A stretch of DNA of 64,000 nt from Comamonadaceae bacterium (GTDB taxonomy: Bacteria > Pseudomonadota > Gammaproteobacteria > Burkholderiales > Burkholderiaceae_C): contig JAIYBB010000001.1 of assembly GCA_027488735.1 (NCBI GenBank), positions 186,001 to 250,000 on the forward strand, in the 5' to 3' direction. Every line of letters begins with the position of its first letter. Positions within the stretch are counted from its first letter, which is position 1. The notes below the pieces were generated by a model. That model worked only from the letters and a program-made list of their open reading frames with translations, was not told the DNA's origin and searched no databases. Of this stretch, positions 42,215-49,412 are shown piece after piece. The position numbers and the translations under genes are program-made.

Positions 42215-42475
42215 AAAAAATAAAAACTGGTCCCTAAATTGCCAGAGTCAAGTTTCTCTGGTGGTTTTGGGCGTGTTTGTTGCTGTTTTGCAAATAACTA
42301 ATATTTTATAAATATAATAAAGAATTTTTCAATTAATGAATTATTTTGTATTGTTTTATTTGAAATAAATATTCATTTAACTTATTGGCTGACTATTTTT
42401 TAATCGTTTTTGTGGGCTGAGTTTTGCTTTTTTTTTCAATTAAATCAAGAGCTTCAATAAAAAAGTTAATTTACA
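42215..42475. other. AT-rich intergenic region upstream of bactofilin cluster
   Basis: The roughly 260 bases following the helicase are sharply AT-rich compared with the flanking genes. They contain a CCAGAG/CTCTGG hairpin at about 42242-42261 that may be a weak terminator, then long A/T tracts (for example TTTTTTTTT near 42430). No reading frame is seen. It probably holds the promoter of the bactofilin cluster; local curvature or H-NS-type silencing is possible but not shown. Confidence 0.6.
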
Positions 42476-42497
42476 TTTGATCTTTGATAAGATCAAA
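42476..42497 (+). promoter_or_regulatory. 9-bp stem hairpin just upstream of bactofilin RBS
   Basis: TTTGATCTT-TGAT-AAGATCAAA forms a perfect 9-bp stem with a 4-base loop. It ends directly before the AAGGGAGC ribosome-binding site of the first bactofilin gene (ATG at 42512). It could be an operator or an RNA hairpin affecting translation. Confidence 0.5.
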
Positions 42498-42511
42498 ACA
42501 AGGGAGCAAGT

Positions 42512-42907
42512 ATGGCAAATCCAGCAGATTCATTAGAAAGCGTCGTGATCGGTGATGGCGTGGTCGTAAAAGGTGCTTTCACGGTACCTTCCAAAGCCGT
42601 GATCAATGGGGTGATCGAAGGTGATTTGACTGCTGAGGAAGTGCTGATCGGCACCACTGGCCGCATCACTGGCAGGGTGTCGGCCAAGATGATCGATGTC
42701 AGGGGGCAGTTGCACCACACCATCGTCAGCGAGAAAAGTCTGATCGTTCGCGCCACGGGAAAAATCGTCGGAAAAATTCACTACGCTGAAATCGAAATCG
42801 AAAAGGGTGGAGAAATTGAAGGCGCCCTGCACCAAGGTTCTGAACCGCCGGCTTCCACCACAACCACAGCTGCGCCTCATCAGCAGGCTAAGCCATCAGG
42901 CACCTGA
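42512..42907 (+). CDS. Bactofilin A (polymer-forming cytoskeletal protein)
   Basis: The 131-residue protein has the DUF583/bactofilin repeat core: regularly spaced beta-helix rungs with Gly and Val or Ile at fixed positions (VVIGDGVVVKGAF, VINGVIEGDL, VLIGTTGRITGRV, LIVRATGKIVGKI). Short disordered ends flank it, the C-terminal being Thr/Ala/Pro-rich. Bactofilins polymerise without nucleotide on the inner membrane and guide cell-wall enzymes. It is followed 21 bases later by an M23 peptidase. Confidence 0.9.
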   Translation: MANPADSLESVVIGDGVVVKGAFTVPSKAVINGVIEGDLTAEEVLIGTTGRITGRVSAKMIDVRGQLHHTIVSEKSLIVRATGKIVGKIHYAEIEIEKGGEIEGALHQGSEPPASTTTTAAPHQQAKPSGT

Positions 42908-42928
42908 TGCCACATCCATGGTGAGTTC

Positions 42929-43978
42929 ATGCGATTTTTGTCCTACTCCGCTCTAGCATCAACACACCGTGTCCCTTTGTTGGTCAAGCGCATGTGGTCG
43001 CGCGAGTACCATGATGTCAAATTGATTCTTGAGCAACGCGGGGACCTCAAGTACTTCAATATTCCTGCTAGTTTTCAGCGTTTTGCGGCCAGAGGCTTTC
43101 TGATCACATCGGCAGTCTTGCTTGGCTTGATACTTTTTTTGGCCATTACCAGTTTGATCTTGGGCATCAGCCGTGCGCGCCTGGAAAAATCGCATGAAGA
43201 TGTGTACCGAGCTTTACTGACCAGTTCGGTGGACGCCGATTCGCCTGATTCAAGCTCTCTCAGTGATGAGCAGATGATCAACTTGGCGCAAACCATTCGC
43301 GACCGGGACATGAGCATTCGGCGGTTTGTAGAAACCTCGATGGTGGCGGTGTCAGAAGAGAACGATACGCTCAAAACACAATTAGAGTCCTCTGGATTGA
43401 CCGAAAAAATTGTGCGAATCATCCAGCAAAATTCTGCTAACGGTGGTTTTTCTCCAGAAGGCGATATTCAATCTAACCCATTGTTGCGAGGCAAAGTTGC
43501 CGATGAGTTGGCTACCAATCGTGCGTTGCGCGAGGTGTTGTATGCACTGCCCGCTCAATTGCCGGTTGCCAATTACAGCGTATCTTCCGACTTCGGTGTC
43601 CGTAAGCACCCGCTGAGCGGACGTTCACATTTCCATACGGGGCTGGACTTGATGAGCCAAACAGGAGACGATAAAGTGTTCGCCGTCAAACCGGGAATTG
43701 TGGTCATGGCAGAATACCATCCTCAGTATGGCAACACGGTGATGATTCGGCATTTAAATGGTGTCGAATCTTTGTACGCACATTTGGCGCAATTGTTGGT
43801 CAAAGTGGGTGACAAGGTCACCACAGAAAGCCAACTTGGCTACATCGGAAACACGGGAGATTCCTCCACTGGCAAGCATCTGCATTTCGAGATCTTGGTG
43901 GGAGGCTATCCTGTCAATCCGCAAAAAGTGATTCGGACCGCGCAATATGTTCAACAAATCAAAAATAGCAACCAATAA
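42929..43978 (+). CDS. Membrane-anchored M23 (LytM) peptidoglycan endopeptidase
   Basis: The 349-residue protein has a cytoplasmic N-terminus of about 50 residues, one TM helix (about 58-80), a helical, probably coiled-coil stretch (about 82-160), and a C-terminal M23 domain (about 215-335). Zinc-site residues are present: HTGLD (H236, D240), YAHL (H285) and HLHFE (H317, H319), so it is expected to be active. It lies between two bactofilin genes and overlaps the second by 32 bases. Bactofilin-directed M23 enzymes are known from other bacteria (Helicobacter CcmA with Csd proteins; LmdC with BacA). Confidence 0.9.
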   Translation: MRFLSYSALASTHRVPLLVKRMWSREYHDVKLILEQRGDLKYFNIPASFQRFAARGFLITSAVLLGLILFLAITSLILGISRARLEKSHEDVYRALLTSSVDADSPDSSSLSDEQMINLAQTIRDRDMSIRRFVETSMVAVSEENDTLKTQLESSGLTEKIVRIIQQNSANGGFSPEGDIQSNPLLRGKVADELATNRALREVLYALPAQLPVANYSVSSDFGVRKHPLSGRSHFHTGLDLMSQTGDDKVFAVKPGIVVMAEYHPQYGNTVMIRHLNGVESLYAHLAQLLVKVGDKVTTESQLGYIGNTGDSSTGKHLHFEILVGGYPVNPQKVIRTAQYVQQIKNSNQ

Positions 43979-44411
43979 CACCGTTACCCCACCTGTTGCA
44001 GAAACTTCCAAAGTGACTGCAACTGTTGAAACTAACCCAGACAATCAGCCAGCTGCCCAACCACAGAGAAATAACATGATGGACATGATCTCCTCCAACG
44101 CTTCTAAGCCTTCTATCCTGAGCGAGGGCTTTTCGTTTCGAGGTGAAATTGCAGCAAAAGGCGCCATCCATGTGGAAGGCTCTTTGAATGGTCAGGTACA
44201 AGTCGACGAATTGACCATAGGTTCACGCGGTCAGGTCGAAGGTGTCGTGACCTGCTCTAGTTTGCATATCAAGGGAAAATTCTCTGGTACGGCCACTTGC
44301 AGTGAACTGATCGTGACATCCTCAGCATCGGTTGATGGTCATGTGGTGTACCAAACCTTGTCGGTACAAAAAGGCGCATCTATCAAAGGTGAATTGCTGC
44401 TGGTAAAGTAA
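43947..44411 (+). CDS. Bactofilin B
   Basis: The 154-residue protein has about 57 low-complexity residues rich in Thr, Val, Pro, Gln and Asn, then a bactofilin core (SEGFSFRGEIAAKGAIHVEG, LTIGSRGQVEGVV, LHIKGKFSGTAT, QTLSVQKGASIKGEL). It differs clearly from bactofilin A. It overlaps the end of the M23 gene by 32 bases, which suggests coupled translation and a shared function. Confidence 0.9.
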   Translation: MFNKSKIATNNTVTPPVAETSKVTATVETNPDNQPAAQPQRNNMMDMISSNASKPSILSEGFSFRGEIAAKGAIHVEGSLNGQVQVDELTIGSRGQVEGVVTCSSLHIKGKFSGTATCSELIVTSSASVDGHVVYQTLSVQKGASIKGELLLVK

Positions 44412-44433
44412 GCTTTTTGATCAAAGGCCATGA

Positions 44434-45312
44434 ATGTCGGACATTTCCCAGATTGACGGTCAATCCGTTCGACTCAAGCGCGAATCATTAGGCTGGGCCA
44501 TTTCTGACATGGCCACCATGGCTTGTTTATCGACCAAACAAATCAAGCAAATCGAAGAAGGTGGCATGACCGCTTTCTACAGTGAAAATGTCAAGCTCAC
44601 CGCCGCTCGCAAAGTAGCAGGGTTGCTGGGTATGACAGAGCCCCAGTTGTTCGGACAGGTCACGCCAGCGGTCATTGAGCAACCACAACCCCTCCATGCT
44701 GACGAGAGCTTGGATGAAACCGATACGGCTGTTCACCATGAGCCTGCCCTCGACTCAAGCCCAACCTCAGAAACAGCGGCTATTTCTCGCAGCGAATCTT
44801 GGCATTTTCTGGCGCAACCCCCTGAAAACATCCATCAGAACGAGCAAGGCCATCAGCCTGATTCACCAGCTCCTCAGTCTGAGCCGACTGCTCCGCTGAC
44901 CACTGACACAACGCCACTTCAAGAGCCTGCCTCAGAAGCTGTGCAGGCGCAGGAGCAAGCGCCGCCTGAAACCAGCAACACCAACTATTTGGTCAAGATA
45001 CTCGCTTTGTTTTTGGTGGCCTTGGCTGCAGCCGCTTTGCTCAGGCAACAAGCCGGAGACGACAATGCACAGACCGCCCCAGCGATTGATGCCCAACCGG
45101 TCTTGATACCTGTCCCCGAGGCTCCCCCAGCAACGACGCTGTCTGCCCCAGAGCCCTCAGGCAACGCTGCTCAGGCCACGGCAACCAGCTCGGATGCAAC
45201 TGCGGTGCTGCCAGCTCCGGGTCCGGATAACACCCAGACAAACGCCAATGACCCAGTCGGTAAACCCTTGCCTGCCGAGTCTGATACACCCGCAGCTATC
45301 GGCAGTAAATAA
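44434..45312 (+). CDS. RodZ-like protein: HTH domain, transmembrane helix, disordered periplasmic tail
   Basis: The 292-residue protein has an N-terminal Cro/RodZ-type helix-turn-helix (about 8-65: VRLKRESLGWAISDMATMA, LSTKQIKQIEEGG). About 115 acidic, Pro/Gln-rich residues follow, then one TM helix (185-203) and about 85 Pro/Ala-rich periplasmic residues. This is the layout of RodZ, which couples cytoskeletal polymers to the cell-wall machinery, but the RodZ C-terminal beta domain is absent. It follows bactofilin B by 22 bases. A link to the bactofilins is inferred. Confidence 0.75.
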   Translation: MSDISQIDGQSVRLKRESLGWAISDMATMACLSTKQIKQIEEGGMTAFYSENVKLTAARKVAGLLGMTEPQLFGQVTPAVIEQPQPLHADESLDETDTAVHHEPALDSSPTSETAAISRSESWHFLAQPPENIHQNEQGHQPDSPAPQSEPTAPLTTDTTPLQEPASEAVQAQEQAPPETSNTNYLVKILALFLVALAAAALLRQQAGDDNAQTAPAIDAQPVLIPVPEAPPATTLSAPEPSGNAAQATATSSDATAVLPAPGPDNTQTNANDPVGKPLPAESDTPAAIGSK

Positions 45313-45365: not shown

Positions 45366-46460
45366 CTAGTTCTTGGCACCCATGTCCAAGGCTGCTTGAC
45401 GTGATGCAGCGTTGGCTGCGTCGCTGGCGGGTTCTAGCGGCCATCCAGACATATGTGTCATCGTCAAGTTGTGCATGGCGCTTATCCATACCGGGCTGTC
45501 GTTGATGCATTCAATATAGTGAAACTGCTCGCCACCTTCTTCTAAAAAGGCCGCCTTCACTTCCAGTGCGATTTCCTCAAGGGTTTCAAGACAATCGCTG
45601 ACAAAGCCGGGGCAAACAATCTGAACTGAGCGACAGCCCTGACGGGCCAGTTCGCGCACGGTGGGTTCGGTATAAGGTTCCAGCCATTTGGCCTTGCCAA
45701 AGCGCGATTGAAAGCACACCTTGTATTCGTTTTTAGACAAGCCCAAGGCTTCGCCTAGTAACCTGGCGGTTTTATGGCATTCGCAGTGGTAGGGGTCGCC
45801 TAATTGCAAAGTACGTTCGGGCACGCCATGAAAGCTCATCACCAACTGCTCTGCGCGCCCATGCTGTGCCCAATGCGAACGAATTTTGTCGGCCAGCGCT
45901 TCTATGTAGCCGGGGTGATCGTGGTAATGGTTGATGAAACGCAGTTCAGGCAGGTTACGGGTGCGCATGCCCCAGGCATACACCGCATCGAATACGCTGG
46001 CGGTGGTGGTGCCTGAGTACTGGGGATATGCTGGCAACACCAACACTCGGGTAACGCCTTGCGCTTTCAATTCGTCCAAGACTTGTGGCACGGCAGGCGA
46101 ACCATAGCGCATGGCAAAGCGGACCACCACTTTTTTCGGATCAAACAATTGCTGCAAGGCCAGACCTTGTTTTTCTGTCCAGACCTTCAGCGGGGATCCT
46201 TCCGCGGTCCAAATACTGGCGTATTTATGTGCAGACTTGGCTGGACGGACTCGCAAAATAATGCCGTGAAGAATCATCAACCAAAGAAAACGCGGTATCT
46301 CAACCACCCTGGGGTCACTTAAAAATTCAGCAAGGTAGCGACGCAATGCAGGCGCAGTGGGGGCCTGCGGCGTGCCTAAGTTGCAGTAAACAATGGCTGT
46401 TTTGGCGGGCTGTCCGTGGCTGTAGGCTGGTTCAGCGGCAAATCTGGGAGTTGAATTCAT
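45366..46460 (-). CDS. hemH: Ferrochelatase
   Basis: The 364-residue enzyme inserts iron into protoporphyrin IX. Motifs are YCNLGTPQAP, LPAYPQYSGTTTASVFD, LVMSFHGVPERT with the metal-site His, FQSRFGKAKWLEPYT, and VCPGFVSDCLETLEEI with the conserved Glu. The ATG at 46460 overlaps the hpnE stop by 4 bases, so it is cotranscribed with the squalene genes. This is not the usual hemH context in E. coli. Confidence 0.95.
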   Translation of the reverse strand: MNSTPRFAAEPAYSHGQPAKTAIVYCNLGTPQAPTAPALRRYLAEFLSDPRVVEIPRFLWLMILHGIILRVRPAKSAHKYASIWTAEGSPLKVWTEKQGLALQQLFDPKKVVVRFAMRYGSPAVPQVLDELKAQGVTRVLVLPAYPQYSGTTTASVFDAVYAWGMRTRNLPELRFINHYHDHPGYIEALADKIRSHWAQHGRAEQLVMSFHGVPERTLQLGDPYHCECHKTARLLGEALGLSKNEYKVCFQSRFGKAKWLEPYTEPTVRELARQGCRSVQIVCPGFVSDCLETLEEIALEVKAAFLEEGGEQFHYIECINDSPVWISAMHNLTMTHMSGWPLEPASDAANAASRQAALDMGAKN

Positions 46461-47749
46461 ACCCTATTTTCCCCCAAGCGCCATCGCTCTAAAAGATTCA
46501 CCGCATGAAGCCCTGATTGCACCGCGCCTTCCAAGGTGGCCGGGTAGGGGCCATCGATGTAATCACCACATGCCACCAATGGATGGCGAACCACTGCAGG
46601 CGGCCTGCGGACCCCGGGCACACAGGCAAATGCCGCGCGTTTTTCCACCACGGTCAGCAACGCGCTGGCTTGGCGCAACCCCATTTGGTCACTGGCCTGT
46701 CTTTGCACCGCCTCTGTGGTGGTTTGTCTGTCTTGGGTGCTGGCACTGACCACCATAGCCAGCACGCCTTGCATGCCAGGGTCTGGCGTTAGCTTGCCTT
46801 TGTCAAACGCAAATTGAGCAGGCGCATCCGCATCGCTGTGCAAAGCCATGACGGGGCTGTGCCAATCAAGCTCTTGGTGGGCTTGCAAATAAACCGTGGT
46901 GATGGCGGTGTGCGCCAAATCATGTGCCTGAGCTGACCATGCGGGTTCGATGGCTGCCGTTAGTCGGGCCGCTTCCCATGCGGGACAAGCCAAGACCACC
47001 GGCTCTGCCAGCAACTCCTCCAGATGTTGTACGTGACTGCCAGTGACAACTTCAGCACCCTGCTGCGCCAACCATTGCACCACAGCATCGGGCCATAGGC
47101 GGCTTAAATCAGTGCGTGGAATCAACATATCGCTGCTGCCAACGCCGCCCATCAACGCGTCTTGCATGACCCGCAAAAATACCCGAGCACTGGCCTGCGC
47201 CGGGGGCAGATTCAGCGCCGACACGCACAGCGGTTCAATCAGCAATGACATGACAGTAGGCGGCAAATGGCAACACAGCGCAGCCACGGTCATGTCAGCG
47301 GGTGCTTGGAATTGGTTCAAACGCCAGCGAAATGCCTGCCCGGTAAGAGACCATTTGTCTTGCCAAGCCCAGCCCTTGGCTTGCAAGATCGCCGCCAGCA
47401 TGTTCCATGGCGCGGGCCATGCAGACAATTGCAGACCGGTGTCATCGGGTCTGCGTAAACACAGCGGCATGCGAAAAAGATGTTGTTCGGTGTCGATTCC
47501 TACAGTCTTCATCAGCCTCAGTGTTTCGCGGTAAGCGCCAATCAGAATGTGCTGACCATTGTCCAAGGCTAAGCCGTGGTGCATGACCCGACGTGCCCGC
47601 CCACCAACGTGGGGTGCGGCTTCTAGCAGGCGCACTTGCCAGCCCTGTTGGACGGCATGCACGGCAGCGGACAGTCCTGCCCAGCCCGCGCCCACCACAG
47701 TGAGTTTTTTCAAAATCGTCCCAGTGCCTGCATTTTCCAAGCGAGCCAC
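46457..47749 (-). CDS. hpnE: Hydroxysqualene dehydroxylase HpnE
   Basis: The roughly 430-residue FAD-dependent amine-oxidase-like protein has GxGxxG (TVVGAGWAGLSAAVHA), VGGRARR, and DNGQHILIGAY. It completes squalene formation with HpnC and HpnD. The annotated ATG at 47749 overlaps hpnD by 40 bases. A TTG at 47713, one base offset from the hpnD TGA stop and preceded by GGGA, would give a coupled start with a canonical N-terminus and may be the true one. Confidence 0.88.
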   Translation of the reverse strand: MARLENAGTGTILKKLTVVGAGWAGLSAAVHAVQQGWQVRLLEAAPHVGGRARRVMHHGLALDNGQHILIGAYRETLRLMKTVGIDTEQHLFRMPLCLRRPDDTGLQLSAWPAPWNMLAAILQAKGWAWQDKWSLTGQAFRWRLNQFQAPADMTVAALCCHLPPTVMSLLIEPLCVSALNLPPAQASARVFLRVMQDALMGGVGSSDMLIPRTDLSRLWPDAVVQWLAQQGAEVVTGSHVQHLEELLAEPVVLACPAWEAARLTAAIEPAWSAQAHDLAHTAITTVYLQAHQELDWHSPVMALHSDADAPAQFAFDKGKLTPDPGMQGVLAMVVSASTQDRQTTTEAVQRQASDQMGLRQASALLTVVEKRAAFACVPGVRRPPAVVRHPLVACGDYIDGPYPATLEGAVQSGLHAVNLLERWRLGENRV

Positions 47750-48549
47750 AATTTGCGAACAGGCGTGAGCGATACGCGTTGTTTGAGTACAGGAAATTTA
47801 GCTTGGGCGATTTCATGCAGCAAAGTTCGGTAAATGCTGGCCATCATCAGGCCAGGTTTTTGTGCCCGCCAATCGGCAACAGGTAGCATGGCCAAAGCCT
47901 CCTCGTACAAAGCCAAGGCCCGATCGGTTTGAAACTGCATCAGCGCCTGAAATGCGAGAGAGTCGCGGCGGTTGAGCAAGTCAGCGGCAGTGACCTGAAA
48001 CTGCTGCAACTCATCCATGGGCAAGTAAATACGTCCACGCAATGCATCCTCACCCACATCACGAATGATGTTGGTCAATTGAAACGCCAGCCCCAGCTTA
48101 TGCGCATATTCGGTGGTTTGGCCTTGGGTTTGACCAAAAATAAGGGCGGCGACTTCGCCCACCACCCCAGCCACCAAGTGGCAATAGATTTCCAGTCCTT
48201 TGAAATCAAGGTAGCGCGTTTGGTGCAAATCCATATCGCACCCTTGAATCACTTGTTGCAAATGGAGCTGAGTGATGCCGTGCTCGGCGGTCAATGGCAT
48301 CAATGCTTGCATCACCGGGTGCTGGGGATTACCTGCAAAACTGCGCGCCACTTCTGTGCGCCACCATTGCAATTTTTGCGCAGCGACGCCAGCGTCATGG
48401 ACCTCGTCCACCACATCGTCGATTTCACGGCAAAACGCATAAAAAGCAGTGATAGCGGCCCGTTTACGGGGCGGCAGAAACAAAAAAGCGTAGTAAAAAC
48501 TGCTGCCAGAGCCAGCGGCTTTGGCTTGCACATATTGCTGAGGTGTCAT
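47710..48549 (-). CDS. hpnD: Presqualene diphosphate synthase HpnD
   Basis: The 279-residue head-to-head prenyl synthase has the first Asp motif REIDDVVDE and the second NIIRDVGEDA, with FYYAFLFLPPRKRAA at the start. It condenses two farnesyl diphosphates to presqualene diphosphate. It lies 28 bases downstream of hpnC. Confidence 0.92.
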   Translation of the reverse strand: MTPQQYVQAKAAGSGSSFYYAFLFLPPRKRAAITAFYAFCREIDDVVDEVHDAGVAAQKLQWWRTEVARSFAGNPQHPVMQALMPLTAEHGITQLHLQQVIQGCDMDLHQTRYLDFKGLEIYCHLVAGVVGEVAALIFGQTQGQTTEYAHKLGLAFQLTNIIRDVGEDALRGRIYLPMDELQQFQVTAADLLNRRDSLAFQALMQFQTDRALALYEEALAMLPVADWRAQKPGLMMASIYRTLLHEIAQAKFPVLKQRVSLTPVRKLWLAWKMQALGRF

Positions 48550-48577
48550 AGCCGAGATTGTGGCACTGGCGCTTTGG

Positions 48578-49366
48578 CTATTTGGGTTGCGGGGGCTTGT
48601 GCGACATCCAGAGACTGCGCCACAGCATCAGCGCGAAATCCGCCGTGTTGAGCTGCGGCCTATGAAGGAATGTGTCGGTGCGAGAAATTTTGTCCAACAC
48701 GCGCAGCCCTCCTTGCACCACCAGACGAAGTTCCCAGCCAGCACGCCCGGGCACTTGGTGCACCAAGCCTGCACCTTTGAGCATCAATGAGCGGGCGAAC
48801 GCCAGTTCATCTGCAAGCCTGGCGTTCTCTGGCAGGTAAAACCTGCCGCGCGCAATGTCCACGCTCAGGTCCTGCCAAAAATTGATCAACTGCAAGGCTG
48901 AACATACGCAATCGCTTTGCTGCAAAGCAACGGCATCGTTGATACCGTACAGATGCAACAGCAAGCGGCCGATCGGGTTGGCTGATCGGGTGCAGTAGTC
49001 CAGCAGTTCCGTGCGGTTTTGGTAAATGCGCTTGTCGCGGGTATGAATAACATCTTGTTCAAACGCTGAAAGAAGCGCCAGCAAGTGCTCACAAGGTATG
49101 TCGAACGCATGCATCTCACGCCACAAGGCCTGCAGCATCGTTGGCCAGTTTGGGCTGATCGGCCCGCTTTGTCGCAAACCGTTTTGCAAGTCTGTGCGCA
49201 GGGTAGCGAGCAGGTGTAGGCGCTCTTCGGCGCTGGCATGGCCTTCGTCAGCAATATCGTCGGCAGTGCGTGCAAAGTGGTAGATGGCCACCACGGCCGC
49301 TCGCAGATGCGGTGGACAAAGCACCGAAGCAACAGGAAAGTTCTCGTAGTGGTCAACGGTTGACAT
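48578..49366 (-). CDS. hpnC: Squalene synthase-like protein HpnC
   Basis: The roughly 262-residue prenyl synthase paralogue of HpnD has FARTADDIADEG and LINFWQDLSVDIARGR motifs. It converts presqualene diphosphate to hydroxysqualene. Met9 of the longer frame (49366) gives the canonical STVDHYENFPVAS start; the ATG at 49390 is an alternative. It is the first gene of hpnC-hpnD-hpnE-hemH and divergent from the RND operon. No squalene-hopene cyclase is in the window. Confidence 0.9.
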   Translation of the reverse strand: MSTVDHYENFPVASVLCPPHLRAAVVAIYHFARTADDIADEGHASAEERLHLLATLRTDLQNGLRQSGPISPNWPTMLQALWREMHAFDIPCEHLLALLSAFEQDVIHTRDKRIYQNRTELLDYCTRSANPIGRLLLHLYGINDAVALQQSDCVCSALQLINFWQDLSVDIARGRFYLPENARLADELAFARSLMLKGAGLVHQVPGRAGWELRLVVQGGLRVLDKISRTDTFLHRPQLNTADFALMLWRSLWMSHKPPQPK

Positions 49367-49412
49367 GGTCTTTGTATTGTGACTTGACATGGCTGGTATT
49401 CAGAATTAGATT

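Follow-up and report, generated by a model that had tools for sequence, protein, structure and literature searches.

A bactofilin and M23 peptidase gene cluster of Limnohabitans that carries a RodZ-like membrane protein

What does a RodZ-like membrane protein do at the end of a bactofilin gene cluster? The question is raised by four genes in a stretch of 64,000 nucleotides (nt) from a Comamonadaceae bacterium (assembly GCA_027488735.1, contig JAIYBB010000001.1, positions 186,001 to 250,000 of the forward strand), hereafter the window. Open reading frame (ORF) calling in the window placed the four genes on the plus strand over 42512-45312, in the order bacN (a bactofilin), an M23 peptidase, bacC (a second bactofilin) and a protein with a helix-turn-helix (HTH) domain and a transmembrane (TM) segment, which we call type A. 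The arrangement as first observed was confirmed. The new part is the type A HTH-TM protein within the bactofilin-M23 module. We read the cluster as a peptidoglycan endopeptidase placed by a bactofilin scaffold and accompanied by an adaptor that derives from RodZ but is not of the kind that binds MreB, a tentative reading to which we give slightly less than an even chance. The features on which the argument draws are as follows.

42512..42907, plus strand: bacN, a bactofilin without an MF-type membrane-targeting start (PF04519, 69.6 bits)
42929..43978, plus strand: M23/LytM peptidase, LmdC-like and bitopic (PF01551, 97.9 bits; cut-off 28.7)
42995..43093, plus strand: conserved, probably cytoplasmic segment of the M23 protein, residues 23-55 (alignment conservation)
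43634..43885, plus strand: M23 catalytic residues H236, D240, H285, H317 and H319 (alignment)
43947..44411, plus strand: bacC, a bactofilin starting MFNKSK (PF04519, 79.1 bits)
44434..45312, plus strand: type A, a RodZ-like HTH-TM protein (ORF, Pfam, hydropathy, linkage)
44434..44658, plus strand: HTH domain, type A residues 1-75 (alignment, model)
44986..45042, plus strand: TM helix, type A residues 185-203 approximately (hydropathy)
45043..45309, plus strand: low-complexity tail, poorly conserved and probably periplasmic, in the place of RodZ_C (hydropathy, conservation)

Linkage and distribution of the four genes

We searched 61 genomes of the genus Limnohabitans with the HTH protein as the query and read the matched regions. 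Type A was present in 52 genomes, the window's included. At all 51 type A loci of the other genomes, the HTH gene lies directly downstream of a bactofilin gene on the same strand, with 27-74 nt between the bactofilin and HTH domains. All four genes were recovered by best hit at 48 of these 51 loci, and at the remaining three (L047, L051, L080) the upstream genes run off the contig end. With the M23 protein as the query, the HTH gene directly follows bacC at 63 of 70 named loci; another three are cut by contig ends (L106, L115, L159). The original prediction had proposed a check of whether the four genes co-occur in other genomes, and had named as its refutation an HTH-TM gene that in relatives is unlinked from bactofilins and has no predicted contact with them. 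The genes do co-occur, and the linkage held with both queries. We note that the sets of 70 and 51 loci overlap in part (same contigs), that related species share arrangements by descent, and that the loci are not independent. The same locus occurs in Limnohabitans sp. B9-3, Jir61 and JirII-31, and on this ground we assign the window's genome to Limnohabitans. Two loci from metagenome-assembled genomes (L106 and L120, with 95% and 72% M23 identity) are titled Sulfuritalea sp. and Bordetella parapertussis, labels that look wrong.

No type A match was found in six genomes of the genus (G204, G215, G221, G235, G249, G257), and three others (G201, G230, G234) yielded only a related form, type B; several of these nine genomes are incomplete. 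Beyond the genus, the M23 profile matched 9 of 397 family genomes at E ≤ 1e-40, comprising six Limnohabitans and three genomes from two other genera; one Limnohabitans genome (G421) had no match at this threshold. A genome of another genus (G439) encodes directly after bacC an HTH-only ORF that contains GGDSAFYS and has no TM segment. At the order level, the profile matched 3 of 399 genomes at 1e-35, namely the window's own and two in which only the M23 domain was covered, and this search added no full-length M23 orthologue. When 200 family genomes were searched with the HTH protein, 4 gave a match, and the one in G121, of another genus, was weak (E 1.7e-4). A wide distribution of the module was considered and rejected: among the genomes drawn, it is nearly confined to Limnohabitans.

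Two bactofilins and a membrane-bound peptidase

Two different bactofilins were predicted to flank the M23 gene, and the PF04519 matches on both sides exceed the curated Pfam cut-off of 27.9 bits. The two proteins differ at their starts. Counted from the beginning of the stop-to-stop ORF, residues 1-120 include an MF[NSKE][KR] stretch in 47 of 49 aligned bacC sequences; 0 of 49 aligned bacN sequences have one. The membrane-targeting start of BacA is MFSKQAKS (PMC12448750), and the bacC start MFNKSK resembles it. BacC would thus attach to the membrane through its MF-type start and form filaments together with bacN. The window's genome (2.5 Mb, 13 contigs) carries six bactofilins and four M23 domains, two of which adjoin bactofilins (the cluster's own and C5:197411-198095). 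The second M23-bactofilin pair (L097:6797-8180, in G000:C5) lies near minCD-like genes, and its bactofilin starts MFEKL.

The M23 protein has a short N-terminus, one TM segment and then the M23 domain (hydropathy, Pfam); the N-terminus is probably cytoplasmic and the M23 domain periplasmic. All 50 aligned sequences (the window's protein and 49 others scoring at least 400 bits) keep the catalytic residues H236, D240, H285, H317 and H319 unchanged, in agreement with the membrane-anchored LytM enzyme with an intact catalytic site that had been predicted. The conservation pattern of residues 23-55, read in the light of LmdC, marks them as a candidate bactofilin-docking beta-hairpin. By this segment the enzyme would dock on bactofilin filaments, and in the periplasm it would open peptide cross-links.

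The pairing of a bactofilin with an M23 enzyme is already published. The BacA and LmdC genes of Hyphomonas neptunium and Rhodospirillum rubrum are likewise adjacent and overlapping and encode a bactofilin and a bitopic M23 protein, and LmdC shares with the protein described here a short cytoplasmic N-terminus, one TM segment and a periplasmic M23 domain (PMC10945521). LmdC is a DD-endopeptidase whose cytoplasmic tail binds BacA and which modulates curvature in R. rubrum, and the H. neptunium gene pair is given as a putative bicistronic operon (PMC10945521). Unlike BacA-LmdC, the Limnohabitans cluster has two different bactofilins around the M23 gene, and the HTH-TM gene follows. BacA of Caulobacter has an MF-type start and attaches to PbpC, a wall synthase, at the N-terminal peptide of that enzyme (PMC12448750), and the Caulobacter bacA operon includes a LytM-like gene, ldpA (PMC6373972); the accounts of BacA-PbpC and BacA-LdpA examined describe no HTH-TM partner. 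A RodZ-like bactofilin partner had been put forward as undescribed, and we found none in the mostly open-access literature examined.

Relation of type A to RodZ

RodZ proteins (E. coli; T. maritima, 2wus_R; S. aureus YmfM, 3fym; Chlamydia CT009) have in common with type A a layout of an XRE-type N-terminal HTH, one TM segment and a part beyond the membrane. The type A protein has one strong hydrophobic segment after its HTH, as in RodZ (hydropathy), and the RodZ_C family (PF13464) had no match at E ≤ 1 in the window's protein. The RodZ layout without the RodZ beta domain is therefore as predicted. The HTH scored below the cut-off against all three Pfam families that it resembled (HTH_25, 17 bits against a cut-off of 24.6; HTH_19, 16.1 bits; HTH_3, 15.8 bits). 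Its structural model had a predicted local distance difference test (pLDDT) score of 80.8 and a predicted template modelling (pTM) score of 0.69. The two top structural matches of the model (VIA) are RodZ chains, 3fym (Z 10.6) and 2wus_R (Z 9.8). We take 3fym, the YmfM of S. aureus, to be RodZ. For B. subtilis, YmfM is stated to be RodZ (PMC5073135). The HTH aligned to E. coli RodZ with an hhalign E of 2e-8. Nothing useful came from searching PDB sequences with either the HTH or type B.

E. coli RodZ needs F60 and Y64 for MreB binding (PMC4047632). These positions correspond to V53 and A57 in the window's type A protein. Both aromatics are replaced by non-aromatic residues in 102 of 102 sequences (52 of type A and 50 of type B, 45 distinct), where each position was located by its constant spacing to the FY motif and checked by aligning 50 sequences with E. 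coli RodZ. This loss argues against MreB as the link from type A to the "other machinery" that had been proposed. Together with the missing RodZ_C domain, it makes the window's protein RodZ-like in build and not RodZ by the features tested. Chlamydial RodZ also lacks the periplasmic domain, yet it keeps the aromatics (Y66, F70; PMC4047632). The type A HTH further differs from RodZ in a constant FY[STN] motif, which is present in all 102 type A and type B sequences; the EGG before it is constant in type A only, with one exception. In a 37-row alignment of the type A HTH, E41, G43, G44, F48, Y49 and S50 are invariant. The gene neighborhoods differ as well: E. coli rodZ adjoins ispG, whereas the type A gene sits in the bactofilin cluster.

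The second Limnohabitans form, type B, has an HTH, a TM segment and a C-terminal beta domain, and its HTH is homologous to that of type A (hhalign E 4e-24). The beta domain had pLDDT ≥94 over residues 231-320 in the one protein modelled. Pfam RodZ_C matched 8 of 26 type B proteins at E ≤ 1, weakly (best 6e-4), and Foldseek, run with the full-length model of type B, found nothing at E ≤ 0.001, so that the RodZ_C-like reading of this domain draws on these weak Pfam matches and on its look. Two cysteines of the beta-domain part, C226 and C259, are invariant in 26 of 26 rows (reference L099:7035-8009) and may form a disulfide.

A bactofilin domain is present no more than 2.6 kb from type B at 15 of 42 independently found loci, or at 19 of 46 when four loci found via the neighboring module are counted; some type B matches were not fetched (e.g., G210, G234 and weak ones like that of G220). 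The bactofilins concerned are different paralogues. Type B is directly followed by a bactofilin next to thyA at seven loci (L191, L194, L211, L213, L221, L223, L232) and abuts or overlaps another bactofilin at three (L222, L229, L236). A third arrangement is the series type B-M23'-bactofilin', which at L078, L084, L085 and L088 lies immediately upstream of bacN-M23-bacC-type A, beside minC. Separately, two genomes encode a 145-amino-acid HTH-TM protein (L219:4949-5386 and L220:5081-5518), divergently from a bactofilin paired with a gene that by look is TetR-like. Its HTH aligns to that of type A (hhalign E 3e-10) and has FAS or FTT instead of FYS, and the protein is possibly a third RodZ-like form.

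Possible roles of the type A protein

We propose that the four genes form one cluster, probably one operon, whose products would make a membrane-bound bactofilin scaffold that places a peptidoglycan-cutting enzyme. Type A would cross the membrane by a single helix and extend a flexible tail into the periplasm, while in the cytoplasm the FYS-bearing face of its HTH would touch the assembly of bactofilins and M23. It would be a RodZ-derived adaptor in which the MreB-binding type was lost. The linkage of type A, the type B genes near bactofilins and the HTH-only ORF in G439 support this proposal, and the case for a RodZ origin rests on fold and layout and on the existence of type B, which has a RodZ_C-like domain.

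Several observations weigh against the proposal. The contact of type A with the bactofilins or with M23 is hypothetical, as is the single complex of the four proteins that was first suggested, and the original interpretation is supported in part. Type A is separable from the other three genes: at 4 of the 70 M23-query loci (L158, L160, L161, L162) it does not directly follow bacC, another bactofilin taking that place at L160-L162, and two genomes of one other genus (G433, G330) have bacN-M23-bacC with no such HTH in the stretch read. No bactofilin was found within 2.6 kb of type B at 27 loci, the window's own genome included, of which L203, L204 and L235 are cut by a contig end downstream. The linker and tail of type A are poorly conserved, with top-residue frequencies of 0.30 and 0.38 compared with 0.68 for the HTH. 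In the structural comparison, the DNA-binding protein SinR (Z 9.7) is level with the RodZ chain 2wus_R and within 1 Z of both RodZ chains. A control, an unrelated-looking 112-amino-acid HTH protein from the same genome, reached an hhalign E of 1e-7, nearly equal to the RodZ match, and the sequence match alone thus does not single out RodZ. Given this control, we rated an adaptor role and the change of filament partner discussed below slightly lower, and a regulatory role slightly higher.

In that regulatory role, type A would be tethered to the membrane and control the transcription of its own operon or of genes for cell shape, which we consider unlikely while keeping it in view. It accords with the XRE-type HTH, with the SinR and control comparisons, and with a conserved block upstream of bacN:

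42430..42496, plus strand: upstream block, non-coding and AT-rich, aligned in the window and 9 nearer relatives
42488-42493, plus strand: TAAGAT, a -10-like hexamer inside the conserved block 5' of bacN

The block was not seen in 11 more distant loci in the same alignment, and some relatives have lost the TTGATC...GATCAA inverted repeat found in the window's copy. Both facts speak against a regulator, as do the lack of a conserved sensor part in the variable linker and tail and the RodZ_C-like domain of the sister family, type B. The block with TAAGAT is likely a promoter. A consensus promoter scan did not pick up this hexamer, and promoter and terminator scans of the locus did no better than shuffles. 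As for the junctions, the "tight overlaps" first described hold for M23/bacC, which overlap by 32 nt, and fail for the other two, which are gaps of 21 and 22 nt.

Alternatively, type A could still function as a variant of RodZ and connect the bactofilin-M23 scaffold with MreB and the elongasome. This would fit the RodZ-like HTH fold and layout and the report that bactofilins confine the elongasome in H. neptunium (PMC10945521). MreB itself is present in other Limnohabitans genomes, several of which have two full-length copies. Even so, the replacement in every sequence of the aromatic pair that is critical in E. coli, and the lack of RodZ_C in the window's protein, leave this link unlikely as well. 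One genome (G080; L192, L193) has MreBs of 490.6 and 471.5 bits, one beside gatCAB/mreCD and the other elsewhere. The window's own genome, an incomplete assembly, contains no clear mreB, mreC or RodZ_C (the last searched there only) and no clear GatA, the best matches having 32-39% identity. We rejected a cell without MreB because GatA is also missing, because gatCAB adjoins mreBCD in G080 (names by look) and because other genomes of the genus have MreB; the absence of mreB, mreC and gatA is most likely an assembly gap.

That type A is a mere passenger with no functional tie to bactofilins is improbable: it is absent directly after bacC at 4 of 70 loci and its identity drops fast outside the HTH, but the gene order is kept at 51 of 51 loci and RodZ-like genes recur beside bactofilins in type B and in another genus.

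Searches of Rfam and for plasmids gave no match. Convergent ORFs lie downstream of the cluster (45366-49390, minus strand) and in the same place at most of the 51 type A loci. Judged by their sequences alone, these look like hemH and the squalene-synthesis genes hpnE, hpnD and hpnC.

If type A is an adaptor of the bactofilin-M23 assembly, an effect on cell shape, probably on curvature, may be expected. Limnohabitans cells are coccoid, ovoid, rod-like, curved, solenoid or C-shaped (PMC3591437; PMC3031073), and the shape given for B9-3, one of the strains with the module, is ovoid (PMC3591437/PMC3031073). These varied shapes, together with the curvature role of LmdC in R. rubrum, make a role of the cluster in cell curvature plausible.

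More broadly, the four-gene cluster suggests a second use for RodZ-type proteins, as partners of filaments made of bactofilin. Limnohabitans would then hold a RodZ-derived family, with a disordered tail in type A, a RodZ_C-like domain in type B and, in another genus, a form that consists of the HTH alone; the HTH of this family would have exchanged the MreB actin for bactofilin as its filament partner, a switch that we regard as possible but rather doubtful. If it is true, RodZ would be an adaptor fold of general use, able to recognize different filaments of the cytoskeleton. Type A is a concrete candidate for a non-enzyme bactofilin partner, which bears on how bactofilin scaffolds are placed, and as such a partner it would widen the role of RodZ beyond that of an adaptor for MreB to the cytoskeleton more generally.

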